Origin: Parvibaculum sp.
GTDB lineage: Bacteria > Pseudomonadota > Alphaproteobacteria > Parvibaculales > Parvibaculaceae
Assembly (NCBI GenBank): GCA_019635955.1
Contig: JAHBYL010000016.1
Coordinates: 1 to 59,069, forward strand
Direction: 5' to 3'
Length of the DNA stretch: 59,069 nt
Numbering within the stretch: the stretch's first letter is position 1; each line of letters opens with the position of its first letter. The notes under the pieces were generated by a model. That model saw nothing but the letters and a program-made list of their open reading frames with translations. It did no database searches and was not told where the DNA came from. This document shows, piece by piece, positions 2,864 to 14,470 of the stretch. The position numbers were made by a program, and so were the translations under genes.

Positions 2864-2888
2864 ACGAGAGAAAGACATAAGCAAAAAC

Positions 2889-3839
2889 ATGGTCTCGACG
2901 CGGTCTCACTCGGCGCTTCCCGGTGCGATCGGCCTGCGCGAACAGGCCGAGGCGCTGGCGGAGGCCATGCCGCCGCTCGTCACGGAAGCCGAGCATGTCG
3001 CCTCCACCATCGCGCAGGGCGTTCACGGGCGGCGGCGCACCGGCATGGGCGAGACCTTCTGGCAATATCGCCGCTACCGCGAGGGCGACACGGCGTCCTC
3101 CGTCGACTGGCGGCATTCGGCGCGCTCTTCCCATCTCTTCGTGCGCGAGACGGAGCGCGAGGCGGCGGAAAGCATCTGGATCTGGCGCGACGGTTCGGCC
3201 TCGATGGATTATGCGTCCGACTTCGCGCCCTGCAGCAAGAAGGACCGCGCGACCGTGCTCGCGCTCGCGCTGTCATCGCTTCTCGTGCAGGGCGGGGAAA
3301 GCGTGGCGCCGCTCGGCCACGGTTTCACGCCCGCGCCGGGGCGCAGCGCGCTTCGCCGGATGGCGCATGCGCTGATCGACAATGAGGGCGCGGAGGAGGA
3401 CGGCGCGGCGAAAAGCGGCAGCCTGCCGCCGGCCGAACGGATTCCGCGCTATGCGCAGGTGGTGCTGATCAGCGATTTTCTTTCGCCGGCCGACGAGATC
3501 GTGGCGCAGATAAAAGCCTATGCGTCGGACGGCGTGCGCGGCCACATGATCCAGGTGCTCGACCCGGCGGAGGAAGACCTGCCCTTTTCCGGCCGCACGG
3601 AATTCGAAGGCATCGAGGAGGATTTGCGGCTCACGGTGGGGCGGGCGCAGAATTTGCGCGAAGCCTATCACCAGCGGCTCGAAATCCACCGCAACCGCAT
3701 CATCGAGACGGCGCGGCGCGTGAACTTCACTTTTGCCACGCATCGCACGGACCGCGGGCCGCAGACGGCGCTGCTTGCGCTTTACGGCGCGCTGTCGGGC
3801 GCCATTGCCGCGCGCAAGGCGCCAAGGGCCGGTGTCTGA
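2889..3839 (+). CDS. DUF58 domain protein (MoxR partner)
   Basis: 316 residues. The DUF58 hallmark YREGDTASSVDWRHSARS followed by LFVRETERE lies at about residues 60-95. Downstream segments (IWIWRDGSASMDY, VVLISDFLSP) recall a vWA-like fold with a degenerate metal site. DUF58 proteins are encoded next to moxR in most bacteria and are presumed clients of the ATPase; the biochemical role is unknown. It starts 25 bases after moxR and ends 17 bases before the next gene, so co-transcription is very likely. No transmembrane segment is apparent. Confidence 0.9.
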   Translation: MVSTRSHSALPGAIGLREQAEALAEAMPPLVTEAEHVASTIAQGVHGRRRTGMGETFWQYRRYREGDTASSVDWRHSARSSHLFVRETEREAAESIWIWRDGSASMDYASDFAPCSKKDRATVLALALSSLLVQGGESVAPLGHGFTPAPGRSALRRMAHALIDNEGAEEDGAAKSGSLPPAERIPRYAQVVLISDFLSPADEIVAQIKAYASDGVRGHMIQVLDPAEEDLPFSGRTEFEGIEEDLRLTVGRAQNLREAYHQRLEIHRNRIIETARRVNFTFATHRTDRGPQTALLALYGALSGAIAARKAPRAGV

Positions 3840-6663: not shown

Positions 6664-8742
6664 ATGGCCTGGCATATCGTTTTCGAACCGCTTGCTCCTG
6701 TCGCCCTGATCCTCGCGCTGGCGCTACCCGGCGTGGCGCTGATCGTCTATTCCTTCTACCGCCGCGCGCGCGGCGCGCCGCTCCGCGCCATCGCGCTTGC
6801 CGTGCTGCTCGTGACGCTCTTCAACCCGACGATCCGCAGCGAGGAGCGCGAGGCAGTGCCGGATATCGCCGCGATCGTGGTGGACCGGAGCCAGAGCCAG
6901 GAGATCGGCAAGCGGCCGCAGGAAACCGATGCCTCGCTGGCGCGCCTCGGCGAGAGGCTCGAGCGCATGGACGGCATCGAGACGCGGATCGTGGAGGCGC
7001 GCAACGACCCGCAGGACGAGAACGGCACGACGCTTTTCCGCGCGCTGGAAGAGGCGCTTTCCGATGTGCCGCGCGAGCGCGTCGCGGGCGCGATCTTCAT
7101 CACCGACGGGCAGGTGCATGATGCGCCGGGCAGCATTCGCGAGCTCGGCTTCGATGCGCCTGTGCATGGGCTCGTCATCGGGCGGCCGGGCGAGAAGGAC
7201 CGGCGGCTGCAGGTGCTGGAAGCGCCGCGCTTCGGCATTGTCGGCGAGCCGGTGGAGCTTTCCTTCCGCGTGGACGAGACCGCGGCCGGCGAAGCGCCGA
7301 CCGGCGAGACGGCGCGCGTGACGCTTTCCATCGACGGCGAGCGCGTGGCGGAAAAGGACGTCGCCATCGGCGCGGTGGAGAGGATCACGCTGTCGCTGCA
7401 GCATGGCGGCGCGAATGTGATCGAGATCGATGTGGCGGAGGGCCCGGACGAGCTCACCACGCTCAACAACCGCGCCGTGGTGATCGCCAATGGCGTGCGC
7501 GACCGCTTGCGCGTGCTGCTCGTTTCGGGCGAGCCGCATCCGGGCGAACGGACATGGCGGAACCTGCTGAAATCCGATCCTTCCGTCGACCTCGTTCACT
7601 TCACCATTCTGCGGCCGCCGGAGAAACACGACGGCACGCCCATCGACGAGTTGTCGCTGATCGCCTTTCCGACGCGCGAACTTTTCGACGAGAAGCTCGA
7701 CCAGTTCGATCTCATCATCTTCGACCGCTACAAGCGGCGCGGCGTGCTGCCGCTCGCCTATTACCTCAATATCGTCGATTACGTGGAAGCGGGCGGCGCC
7801 TTCCTCGCGGCGGAGGGGCCGGCCTTCGCCTCGCCCTATTCGATCTACCGGACGCCGCTTGCCGCGATCCTACCAGCGCATCCGCTGGAGACGACGAGCG
7901 AGGGCGGCTTCCGCCCCGAGGTGACGGAGAAGGGCGCGCGCCACCCCGTGACCGCCGAGCTGCCGGGGGGCGGCGGCGAGGACGAACCGCAATGGGGCCG
8001 CTGGTTCCGCTCCATCGATGTCGGCATCGATACGGGCGACACGCTGATGGACACGCCGGACGGGAAGCCGCTGATGGTGCTGGCCCGCGCCGGCGAAGGC
8101 CGCGTGGCGCAGCTTCTTTCCGATCATGTCTGGCTCTGGTCGCGCGGCTATGAAGGCGGCGGACCGCAGGCCGAGCTTCTGCGCCGCCTCGCGCATTGGC
8201 TGATGAAGGAGCCGGACCTCGAGGAGGAAAATCTCTCGGCCTCGGTGCAGGGCGGGCTGCTCACCATCCGCCGCCGCACGATGGAAGACGAGACGCCGCC
8301 GGCGCGCGTCACGCTCCCCTCCGGCAAGCAAGAGGAAGCGGCGCTCGAGGAAGTGGCGCCCGGGCGCTTCGAAGCGTCGATCGAGGCGCGCGAACTCGGA
8401 CTCTATCGCGTGACGCAGGGCGAACTTTCCGCCGTGGCGGCGGCGGGGCCGCTCAACCCGCGCGAGATCGCCGATGTGCGCGCGACGGAGGGGATCATCC
8501 GCCCGGTGGCTTCGGAATCGGGCGGCGGCGTCTGGTGGGCGGGCGAGGCGGGAGAAGGACTGCCTACGCTCCGCTCCGTGCGCGCGGGGCAGGATGCGGC
8601 GGGTGCAAGCTGGATGGGGCTCCGGCGGAACGAACAATATCTCGTCCATGCGGTGCATCAGGTGCCGCTCATCGCAGGGCCGCTGGCGCTGTTGCTGCTT
8701 CTCGGCACGCTGGCGCTCGCCTGGTGGCGCGAGGGGCGGTGA
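6664..8742 (+). CDS. Membrane-anchored vWA / glutamine-amidotransferase-like protein of the MoxR cluster
   Basis: 692 residues, start supported by AGGAG five bases before the ATG. Two hydrophobic helices lie at the N-terminus (about 10-30 and 39-55) and one at the C-terminal end (LIAGPLALLLLLGTLALAWW). The core begins with a vWA-like strand (DIAAIVVDRSQSQEIG) and AGAIFITDGQVHDAP; further on, LIIFDRYKRRGVLP and DYVEAGGAFLAAEGPAF resemble the class I glutamine-amidotransferase-like fold found in this family, without a visible catalytic triad. Last gene of the moxR-DUF58-DUF4159 operon. Role inferred only from context. Confidence 0.82.
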   Translation: MAWHIVFEPLAPVALILALALPGVALIVYSFYRRARGAPLRAIALAVLLVTLFNPTIRSEEREAVPDIAAIVVDRSQSQEIGKRPQETDASLARLGERLERMDGIETRIVEARNDPQDENGTTLFRALEEALSDVPRERVAGAIFITDGQVHDAPGSIRELGFDAPVHGLVIGRPGEKDRRLQVLEAPRFGIVGEPVELSFRVDETAAGEAPTGETARVTLSIDGERVAEKDVAIGAVERITLSLQHGGANVIEIDVAEGPDELTTLNNRAVVIANGVRDRLRVLLVSGEPHPGERTWRNLLKSDPSVDLVHFTILRPPEKHDGTPIDELSLIAFPTRELFDEKLDQFDLIIFDRYKRRGVLPLAYYLNIVDYVEAGGAFLAAEGPAFASPYSIYRTPLAAILPAHPLETTSEGGFRPEVTEKGARHPVTAELPGGGGEDEPQWGRWFRSIDVGIDTGDTLMDTPDGKPLMVLARAGEGRVAQLLSDHVWLWSRGYEGGGPQAELLRRLAHWLMKEPDLEEENLSASVQGGLLTIRRRTMEDETPPARVTLPSGKQEEAALEEVAPGRFEASIEARELGLYRVTQGELSAVAAAGPLNPREIADVRATEGIIRPVASESGGGVWWAGEAGEGLPTLRSVRAGQDAAGASWMGLRRNEQYLVHAVHQVPLIAGPLALLLLLGTLALAWWREGR

Positions 8743-8782
8743 CGGCGCCTCCGCTTTCGCCAATCGGATGCGCTGTGTTTTC

Positions 8783-8852
8783 CCGCTTACCCCTCCCCAA
8801 AATTTGCGATGCAAATTTTGACCCTCCCTCAGGGGGAGGGTGGTCCAGATGG
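8783..8852. repeat. Intergenic palindromic repeat, copy A
   Basis: About 70 bases nearly identical to 14402-14470. It contains an inner hairpin CAAAATTTGC-GAT-GCAAATTTTG (8798-8820) and a second hairpin ACCCTCCC/GGGAGGGT directly after it, and ends in GGTCCAGATGG. It lies between the MoxR-cluster stop and the Zur operator. See the related copies B, D and E, which keep the same architecture with other inner-stem sequences. Confidence 0.85.
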
Positions 8853-8899
8853 CAAAGGCCGATGCTTGCCTTTCCGCCGAAAGCCGCCTAGCTTCCCGG

Positions 8900-8914
8900 T
8901 GTTATAATATTACA
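8900..8914 (+). promoter_or_regulatory. Zur-type operator overlapping a -10 box
   Basis: TGTTATAATATTACA is one base off the TGTTATAATATAACA palindrome known as the Zur box core. The same bases contain TATAAT (8903-8908), so a bound repressor would cover the -10 element. It stands 22 bases before the GTG of the small membrane peptide and about 150 before znuC, which fits zinc-dependent repression of the zinc importer. No convincing -35 was found. Zur itself is not encoded in this window. Confidence 0.75.
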
Positions 8915-8936
8915 GTTCAGATTTCGGAGCGGACTC

Positions 8937-9068
8937 GTGGCCTATCGCGATACCGGAGAGCGCCATGCGCCCAGTGCCTTCGCGGCGGGGATCGGCTTCC
9001 GGCTGGCCGTGGCCCTTGGCGCGGCGGCGGTTCTCTGGCTTGCGGTTTTCTGGGCACTGGCGCGATGA
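8937..9068 (+). CDS. 43-residue single-span membrane peptide, first gene of the znu operon
   Basis: GTG start with GGAG (8926-8929) seven bases upstream; the stop TGA overlaps the ATG of znuC in an ATGA junction, a sign of translational coupling. The product has a polar N-terminal third (AYRDTGERHAPS) and one hydrophobic helix from about residue 22 to 41 (RLAVALGAAAVLWLAVFWAL) ending in Arg. It lies directly behind the Zur-type operator. No known family is recognised. It may be a zinc-responsive accessory of the ZnuB channel or a coupling leader for znuC; the second possibility would not require a functional protein. Confidence 0.68.
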   Translation: MAYRDTGERHAPSAFAAGIGFRLAVALGAAAVLWLAVFWALAR

Positions 9069-9802
9069 ACGCCTATCGCCACGCCGTTCCCGCCATCGCG
9101 CTGCGCGACCTCACGGTTGCCTATGACCGCGAACCGGCGGTGCATCACCTGAGCGGCACATTCGCGGCGGGGAGCCTGACCGCCATTGTCGGGCCGAACG
9201 GCGCGGGAAAATCGACGCTCCTCAAATCCATCGCCGGTCTCGTCAGGCCAAGCGAAGGCGGCATCGGCATCGAAGGCGGCGCGGGCGAGCGCATCGCCTA
9301 TCTGCCGCAGCTTGCGGAGATCGACCGCAGCTTTCCGATCAGCGTGATCGACGCCGTGTCGCTTGGCCTCTGGCGCGATCTCGGCATGTTCCGCGCGCTG
9401 ACGGGCGAGCACGTGCGGCGCGCGAAGGCGTCGCTTGCGGCGGTGGGGCTCGAGGGCTTCGACGCGCGGCAGGTGGGCACGCTGTCGGCCGGGCAATTGC
9501 AGCGCGTGCTCTTTGCGCGGCTGATGCTGCAGGATGCGGGAATCGTGCTGCTCGACGAGCCGCTGGCGGCGGTGGACGAGCGGACGGCGGGCGACCTGCT
9601 GGCGCTGGTGCGGACCTGGCATGACGAGGGACGAACCGTGATCGCCGTGCTGCACGATCTCGAACGCGTGCGCGAGGCGTTTCCGCAATCGCTGCTGATC
9701 GCGCGGGAGCCTGTCGCCTGGGGGCCGACGGACGAGGTTCTGACGCCGGACAATCTCCGCCGCGCGCGCTACATCTCCGACGGGTGGAGCGACGCGGCAT
9801 GA
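9065..9802 (+). CDS. znuC: Zinc ABC transporter ATP-binding protein ZnuC
   Basis: 245 residues from ATG 9065. Walker A GPNGAGKST lies near residue 44-52, the signature LSAGQLQRVLFARLMLQ near 140, Walker B IVLLDEPLAAVD near 160, and the H-loop in VLHDLE. This is the ATPase of the ABC family for zinc/manganese/iron uptake; the cytoplasmic enzyme powers import through ZnuB. Zinc rather than manganese is favoured by the upstream Zur-type box and the His-rich loop of the linked ZnuA. The start overlaps the stop of the 43-residue peptide and the stop overlaps the znuB start. Confidence 0.9.
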   Translation: MNAYRHAVPAIALRDLTVAYDREPAVHHLSGTFAAGSLTAIVGPNGAGKSTLLKSIAGLVRPSEGGIGIEGGAGERIAYLPQLAEIDRSFPISVIDAVSLGLWRDLGMFRALTGEHVRRAKASLAAVGLEGFDARQVGTLSAGQLQRVLFARLMLQDAGIVLLDEPLAAVDERTAGDLLALVRTWHDEGRTVIAVLHDLERVREAFPQSLLIAREPVAWGPTDEVLTPDNLRRARYISDGWSDAA

Positions 9803-10668
9803 TCTACGATGTGCTGATCGCGCCCTTTGCCGATTACGGTTTCATGCGCCGCGCGCTTGTGGCCTGTCTTGCGCTTGCAATCGGCGGCGGGCCCATCGGC
9901 ACGTTTCTCATTCTGCGGCGCATGAGCCTGATGGGCGATGCGATGAGCCATGCGATCCTGCCGGGGGCTGCGATCGGCTTTCTCGCGGCGGGGCTCTCGA
10001 TCTGGTGGATGAGTTTCGGCGGCCTGCTGGCGGGACTTGCCATCGTGCTGCTGGCGGCGCTGATCAGCCGGACGACGGCGCTGCGCGAGGATGCGAGCCT
10101 TGCCGCCTTCTATCTCGTGAGCCTTGCGCTCGGTGTGCTGCTCGTCTCGATGCGCGGATCGAGCGTCGACCTCCTGCATGTGCTGTTCGGCACCATTCTC
10201 TCGGTCACGGACGATGCGTTGCTGCTGATCGCCTCCATCGCCACGCTGACGGTCATCACGCTGGCCGCGATCTACCGGCCGCTCGTGATCGAATGTTTCG
10301 ACCCGGCATTCCTCCGCGCGACGACGGGCGGCGGCACGATCTGGCATTTCGTGTTCCTGTCGCTCGTGGTCGTGAACCTCGTCGCCGGGTTCCAGGCGCT
10401 CGGCACGCTGATGGCGCTCGGCCTCATCATCCTGCCGGCCGCCGCAGCGCGCTTCTGGGCCGGGGCCGTGTGGTCGCTTTCGGCGCTTTCCTCCGTGCTG
10501 GCCTTCCTGTCGGGGCTCGCGGGACTTCTCATCTCCTATAATTTCAACCTGCCGTCGGGGCCTGCCATCGTTCTGACGGCCGGTGCGTTCTATGTTCTGT
10601 CGGTGATGCTCGGCACGCGGGAGAGCCTGCGCACGCGATATTTCCCGCGCGCCCATTTCCACGAGTAA
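9799..10668 (+). CDS. znuB: Zinc ABC transporter permease ZnuB
   Basis: 289 residues from ATG 9799, whose ATGA overlaps the znuC stop. Seven to eight hydrophobic helices run through the protein, with the family pattern RRMSLMGDAMSHAILPG near residues 41-57, the ABC-3 permease loop. It forms the inner-membrane channel with ZnuC. The C-terminus ends in a short His-containing tail (RAHFHE). znuA follows after 10 bases with an AAGGAGAAAGCG ribosome-binding site. Confidence 0.9.
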   Translation: MIYDVLIAPFADYGFMRRALVACLALAIGGGPIGTFLILRRMSLMGDAMSHAILPGAAIGFLAAGLSIWWMSFGGLLAGLAIVLLAALISRTTALREDASLAAFYLVSLALGVLLVSMRGSSVDLLHVLFGTILSVTDDALLLIASIATLTVITLAAIYRPLVIECFDPAFLRATTGGGTIWHFVFLSLVVVNLVAGFQALGTLMALGLIILPAAAARFWAGAVWSLSALSSVLAFLSGLAGLLISYNFNLPSGPAIVLTAGAFYVLSVMLGTRESLRTRYFPRAHFHE

Positions 10669-14267: not shown

Positions 14268-14299
14268 CTACTCTGACGCTTCAACGACACTCTCTTGTG

Positions 14300-14366
14300 G
14301 CCCACCCTCCCCTTGAGGGAGGGTCGAAATTCGTGGGCGCAGCGAAGCGAATTTCGGGGAGGGGGA
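14300..14366. repeat. Intergenic palindromic repeat, copy B
   Basis: CCCACCCTCCCC and a CTTGAGGGAGGG hairpin, then an inner stem CGAAATTCG/CGAATTTCG (14325-14333 with 14349-14357), then GGGGAGGGGG. It has the same architecture as copies A and C in opposite orientation, with a different inner stem. Copies B and C flank a 35-base spacer, giving a head-to-head pair. Confidence 0.78.
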
Positions 14367-14401
14367 CGCAGCCTTCGGCACTTTGCGCCGATTCAATCCA
14401 T

Positions 14402-14470
14402 CCGCTTACCCTCCCCAAAATTTGCGATGCAAATTTTGACCCACCCTCAAGGGGAGGGTGGTCCAGATGG
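14402..14470. repeat. Intergenic palindromic repeat, copy C
   Basis: Nearly identical to copy A (8783-8852): CCGCTTACC, CTCCCC, the hairpin CAAAATTTGC-GAT-GCAAATTTTG (14416-14438), then ACCCTC/GAGGGT and GGTCCAGATGG. It lies just beyond the 3' end of the LysR gene. Confidence 0.85.

Follow-up and report, generated by a model that had tools for sequence, protein, structure and literature searches.

A conserved single-helix microprotein encoded behind a Zur-type box at the head of an AztABC/ZniCBA-like zinc importer operon

Binding-protein-dependent metal importers are taught as three-part systems, and ZnuABC is a zinc ABC importer that is usually under the control of Zur. ZniCBA, described in Rhizobium leguminosarum and Klebsiella pneumoniae, is likewise a three-gene zinc importer with ATPase, permease and SBP genes (PMC12183173, PMC10797113); in R. 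leguminosarum it is Zur-regulated, with a Zur box 153 bp before zniC (PMC12183173). For AztABCD of Paracoccus denitrificans, Zur binding to the aztA promoter has been observed by EMSA, and the motif, GTAATGTAATAACAT, lies 30–44 bp before the start (PMC5387054). With a box so close to aztA there is no room before the Paracoccus gene for the peptide described here.

The locus under study lies in a stretch of 59,069 nucleotides from Parvibaculum sp. (GCA_019635955.1, contig JAHBYL010000016.1, positions 1–59,069, forward strand; the genome is 86.8% complete), which we call the window. A sequence-only reading had described a palindromic box overlapping a TATAAT, a GGAG seven bases before GTG 8937, a 43-codon frame with one hydrophobic helix and an ATGA overlap with znuC. 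The box, the TATAAT, the GGAG and the frame are all present (Table 1). TATAAT occupies positions 8903–8908 inside the box, in the extended −10 context TGTTATAAT; a consensus scan of positions 8740–9100 gave no classical −35/−10 (sigma-70) pair. ATGA at 9065–9068 is common to the stop of the microprotein and the start of the ATPase gene, so that the overlap stands, but the ATPase is AztA/ZniC-like and the znuC label does not hold. Rfam elements in 8700–9200 were limited to two weak matches, both below their gathering scores. A REP/BIME-like short intergenic repeat is present at 8785–8850 and 14298–14468 of the window, with 34 matches in the genome, where copies often form inverted pairs about 100 bp apart.

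Table 1. Features of the importer locus (positions in the window)
Feature	Position	Strand	Remarks
Zur-type box TGTTATAATATTACA	8900..8914	.	overlaps extended −10 (TG-T-TATAAT)
GGAG, Shine-Dalgarno-like	8926..8929	+	7 nt before GTG start; read directly
43-aa single-helix membrane microprotein	8937..9068	+	GTG 8937, stop 9066–9068
ATPase, AztA/ZniC-like	9065..9802	+	NCBIfam NF040873 AztA 212.9 bits, cut-off 220
Permease, AztB/ZniB-like	9802..10668	+	NCBIfam NF040871 AztB 251.1 bits, cut-off 280; Pfam ABC-3 171.5
Periplasmic metal-binding protein, AztC/ZniA-like, His-rich loop	10679..11659	+	NCBIfam NF040870 AztC 284.8 bits, cut-off 350; Pfam ZnuA 296

The best NCBIfam models of the three importer proteins are AztA, AztB and AztC, each slightly below its curated cut-off. 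The earlier assignment to a znu operon has to be given up, since the ZnuB and ZnuA models fall far below theirs (80.2 against 284 bits and 93.7 against 268 bits, respectively) and the Azt models come near. The importer is thus close to AztABC, like the published ZniCBA, and judged by these protein models the operon is an AztABC/ZniCBA-like zinc importer, with znuCBA identity excluded. The curated AztB cut-off is passed by none of 385 genomes of the class (Alphaproteobacteria, to which the window belongs); a peptide-bearing Skermanella record is nonetheless annotated aztA. No AztD was found in the Parvibaculum genome, a further difference from AztABCD. AztD-like proteins occur in two of the 385 class genomes, both below the cut-off; the 92 genomes in which the peptide was matched include neither of them, an absence that is to be expected in any case because AztD is so rare in this sample.

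A Zur-type promoter is well supported by the sequence data. In all 20 genus loci that could be read, the box keeps 13–15 of its 15 positions and stands 11 to 26 nt upstream of the start codon chosen. Elsewhere in the Parvibaculum genome only one place matches it with at most one mismatch (L276, G000:C57:20704). A gene matching the zinc GTPase ZigA (622 bits against a cut-off of 600) follows it after 22 nt, and it is upstream of a divergent frame as well. The 15-bp palindrome at the promoter is therefore common to a second expected Zur target. Taken together with its likeness to the EMSA-tested Paracoccus motif, the genus-wide conservation and the ZigA site bear out the Zur-type box of the sequence-only reading. 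Zur is the best model for one Fur-type protein, which stays below the cut-off (112.7 against 167). Across the class, a box scoring at least 10 precedes the peptide in 42 of 87 loci, compared with 9 of 1740 control pieces; in about half of the 87 loci no box of that score was found before the peptide.

In Rhizobium mongolense (L210) the box occupies 2856–2870, the microprotein 2888–3010, and the ATPase gene begins with ATG 3007. The start of the box is thus 151 nt before the ATPase ATG, a space like that of R. leguminosarum, here filled by the peptide. By analogy, the peptide may also be encoded in the ZniCBA loci of R. leguminosarum and Klebsiella. No small frame is mentioned in passages of the two ZniCBA papers, whose main texts contain the terms ‘ORF’, ‘open reading frame’ and ‘intergenic’ zero times (PMC12183173, PMC10797113).

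The sequence-only reading had made conservation of the peptide in relatives, at the level of amino acids and not only of frame length, one of the points on which it should stand or fall, and on this point it is clearly upheld. The genus sample comprised 27 genomes, including that of the window, 23 of which have the ATPase. Both the frame and its amino acids are kept in 21 of 21 genomes whose contig reaches upstream (own genome included, and counting L014, where the contig end cuts the frame); in L009 and L030 the contig breaks off at the ATPase gene or within it, which makes them uninformative. In ten genomes from other genera of the family the ATPase was not found at E≤1e-30. Pooled over nine pairs, hand-picked from a similarity list with no row used twice, pN/pS is 0.39 (pS 0.368, pN 0.145), against 1.44 and 1.73 for the two shifted frames of the same DNA; single pairs reach 0.59 where changes are few. 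The ratio is 0.37 in the helix and 0.41 in the N tail. Substitutions at the three codon positions number 61, 53 and 124 over the whole frame; within the helix they number 31, 20 and 59, with a chi-square p of 1.6e-5. Purifying selection on amino acids is therefore confined to this frame. High-GC DNA holds many open frames, which is what speaks for a chance frame or artefact, but the conservation and the placement of the peptide in other genomes contradict such an origin, and we regard it as having virtually no chance of being right. Coding is well supported, and on this comparative evidence the microprotein is a real, old and deeply conserved protein, traceable from the genus to the Pseudomonadota.

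AlphaFold2 predicts one helix over residues 14–42, with pLDDT 96–97 over 21–40 and an uncertain tail, in agreement with the single hydrophobic helix proposed earlier. Arg22, at the helix start, is invariant in all 78 rows of the alignment, and an L-W-x4-W-A motif at the helix end is more than 90% conserved (Leu33 72/78, Trp34 73/78, Trp39 73/78, Ala40 73/77). In the 78 peptides, the 18 residues that end with the Arg contain a mean of 2.12 lysines and arginines and the stretch beyond the helix 0.21, a comparison limited by the mean length of that stretch, only 5.1 residues; the N-terminus is likely inside, in the cytoplasm. Histidine makes up 7.4% of the N tails, compared with 2.0% of three neighbouring proteins. 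At least one is present in 49 of the 78 tails, six tails have at least six, and 29 have none, the start codons being predictions. One group outside the class (L318, L321, L339, L343, L346 and L347) carries a repeated tail, HRH...GPCHFSLMSL, whose His and Cys may form a metal site. When the 27 members of a first profile (A1) were scanned, there was no NCBIfam match at E≤1; the best E values were 0.14 in Pfam and 0.018 in PHROGs, each from a single member. A PDB search gave no related chain or solved structure at E≤10. The microprotein is thus unnamed and, among the 27 members scanned, fits no Pfam, NCBIfam or PHROG family.

The A1 profile was run on 125 class loci, namely the upstream regions of 120 places from the top of a list of the best AztB-model places in the 385 genomes plus eight further loci, less L066, L069 and L165, which have no ATPase; the fetch left out G341, G227 and the tail of the list. 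Loci were divided into close and distant ATPases at 42% identity to that of the window, a limit set after seeing the list. Among 90 close loci, seven of which are in the training alignment of the profile, 89 have a match near the ATPase start and 86 reach at least 10 bits. Two of the weaker ones (L064, 5.4 bits; L101, 7.1 bits) are in place and show the same pattern by eye, a third (L027) scores 2.5 bits at the expected place and 20.1 bits some 1 kb further upstream, and L137 has a close ATPase without a peptide match. None of the 35 distant, mostly ZnuC-type loci reaches 10 bits, the single match being one of 5.1 bits (L157). The earlier reading of a zinc-regulated micro-protein at a znu operon therefore stands as regards a conserved micro-protein behind a Zur-type box; its znu part fails, the ZnuC-type loci examined being without the peptide.

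The same division was seen in named genomes, in which 42 of 80 loci were examined (the remaining 38 all having at most 39% identity). With ATPase identity of at least 48%, the peptide is in place in 22 of 22 loci (8.7 to 43.5 bits; L200 and L214 also belong to the class set), including those of Rhizobium, Nitrobacter, Methylobacterium, Chelatococcus, Pseudomonas (two), Kushneria, Carnimonas, Pseudacidovorax and Achromobacter; at 40% or less, none of 20 has it and no score exceeds 2.0 bits. Of 46 plasmid records with a related ATPase, 21 were opened. Ten carry the peptide, Gemmobacter at 11.2 bits only; the eleven others are nine canonical aztA loci, one Bradyrhizobium and one Deinococcus. Gene tables, which are incomplete, accompany eight of the records that carry the peptide; in four (Skermanella, Comamonas, a Paracoccaceae strain and a Thioclava) it is annotated as ‘hypothetical protein’.

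A second profile of 78 rows (A2) gave 95 matches at E≤0.01 in 92 of the 385 class genomes; many class loci are in A2, so that the scores are not independent, whereas matches at other genomic places are. At E≤1.5e-4 there are 85 matches: 82 stand directly upstream of the ATPase gene, within about 100 nt of it, two are at contig ends and one is displaced, about 1 kb upstream of the ATPase gene (L291, G050). Of the ten weaker matches four were looked at; one is in place (G159), and in the other three (L290, L294 and L295) no ATPase gene of this kind follows. Across 398 Pseudomonadota genomes, the limit of E≤1e-3 leaves 68 matches, of which 40 come from beyond the class, and 68 of 68 are directly before an ABC ATPase gene whose product is 36–63% identical to that of the window (own 100%); the low identities overlap the distant range of the class, and only L318, L321 and L322 of them are in the tree described below. 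Linkage of the peptide to one branch of ABC ATPases is near-perfect. An apparent fusion of the peptide to a transporter subunit, in an 816-aa open frame of G684, turned out to be a peptide whose frame stops short of the ATPase gene. At the displaced locus, the ATPase gene has a Zur-type box of its own and other DNA lies between it and the peptide. In L296 (G416) a related ATPase without the peptide has its binding-protein gene divergent from the ATPase gene.

The arrangement of the two genes bears on whether the frame is a leader only, whose translation opens the ATPase start while the peptide itself has no function, an alternative that the sequence-only reading had put forward. An ATGA-type overlap is possible in 49 of 87 loci, judged by the ATPase-frame start codon nearest the peptide stop, and no obvious Shine-Dalgarno sequence precedes the ATPase ATG in the window by eye, both of which would suit such a leader. 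However, the nearest ATPase start follows the stop at a distance of more than 2 nt in 24 of the 87 loci, and one genome has the peptide about 1 kb upstream; moreover, the amino acids are conserved, one Arg even invariantly, and selection acts on the protein. We consider a leader without other function unlikely because of this conservation and the 24 separated starts. Translational coupling may be a second role of the microprotein.

A quick tree of 118 ATPases, with weak support at most of its forks and long branches for L154 and L322, places the nine canonical aztA plasmid loci without the peptide in one clade (SH-aLRT 100), nested among peptide-bearing rows. Of 21 distant rows, 14 form a separate clade (100), five fall between, and L154 and L162 lie inside the peptide branch. 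The peptide is absent from these two, filed as distant, and from L137 and L189, all four inside the peptide-bearing branch. Read with care, the topology suggests that the ancestor of this importer branch in Pseudomonadota had the peptide, with later losses in the canonical Azt clade and on a few other occasions (L137, L162, L189, perhaps L154). An exchange of the peptide for AztD is only suggestive; AztD was seen in the opened stretch of only three of the nine canonical loci. A more far-reaching proposal, which we hold to be doubtful, is that Azt/Zni-type importers are four-part systems in which a deeply conserved helix subunit, with an invariant arginine at the membrane edge and a cytoplasmic tail that binds zinc, would sense or receive the exiting zinc and set the activity of the permease, the AztABCD branch having swapped it for the periplasmic chaperone AztD.

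KdpF and CydX are short membrane proteins, each tied to one membrane complex. AcrZ, MgtS, MgtR, MgtU and LucB are likewise short, membrane-bound and tied to one membrane complex (PMC10710835). The microprotein, which is short, has one helix and is linked to one transporter type, belongs with such transporter-associated small membrane proteins. Scans of Pfam, NCBIfam, PHROGs and PDB gave no sequence relation to any of those named, and none of them serves a binding-protein-dependent metal ABC importer, unlike the probable partner of the peptide. No name for a small protein of this operon was found in titles, openings of abstracts and text passages of the literature. The main text of a small-proteome paper on Sinorhizobium meliloti does not contain ‘zinc’; it reports seven new small frames in transport operons, listed in its supplement (PMC10117765), and a family member might be among these, unnamed.

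We think it likely, from the sequence comparisons, that the microprotein serves the AztAB/ZniBC-like zinc permease as an accessory subunit with one helix and is the first product of the Zur-repressed operon. It would be a small single-pass inner-membrane protein, made first, with its N-terminus presumably in the cytoplasm and its helix packed laterally against the permease, and it would help to assemble, stabilise or gate the importer. The overlap with the ATPase gene would hold production in step, and in many species a His-bearing cytoplasmic tail would lie near the zinc exit. We infer that the peptide binds the permease and affects it; it could instead serve another, co-made membrane partner. 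The helix might act in turnover, either handing the permease (or another transporter) over to a membrane protease or shielding it, in the manner of MgtR and MgtU; small proteins of this sort are known for Mg transporters (PMC10710835), but in-step production and deep conservation suit a standing partner at least equally and do not separate the two, and we give the adaptor role little probability. The tail might also work as a zinc-responsive brake, binding zinc as it enters and closing the importer ahead of any action by Zur. The enrichment of His in the N tails and the repeated HRH...GPCHFSLMSL tail are consistent with such a brake, which nevertheless seems improbable, as 29 of the 78 tails have no His and metal binding by the tail is a prediction.

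The canonical AztABCD of Paracoccus is reportedly a working importer, and the opened relatives are without the peptide, so that the fold does not need the peptide as such. As a sequence mark, the peptide separates this importer branch from Znu and from canonical Azt. If R. leguminosarum carries it, as the 153-bp gap suggests, the frame is already inside the published zniCBA promoter fragments. Importers of this widespread type probably have a fourth, overlooked part. If true, a whole zinc-importer branch of the Pseudomonadota would possess a fourth, unnamed subunit, and its importers would have to be reconstituted, assayed and modelled differently.
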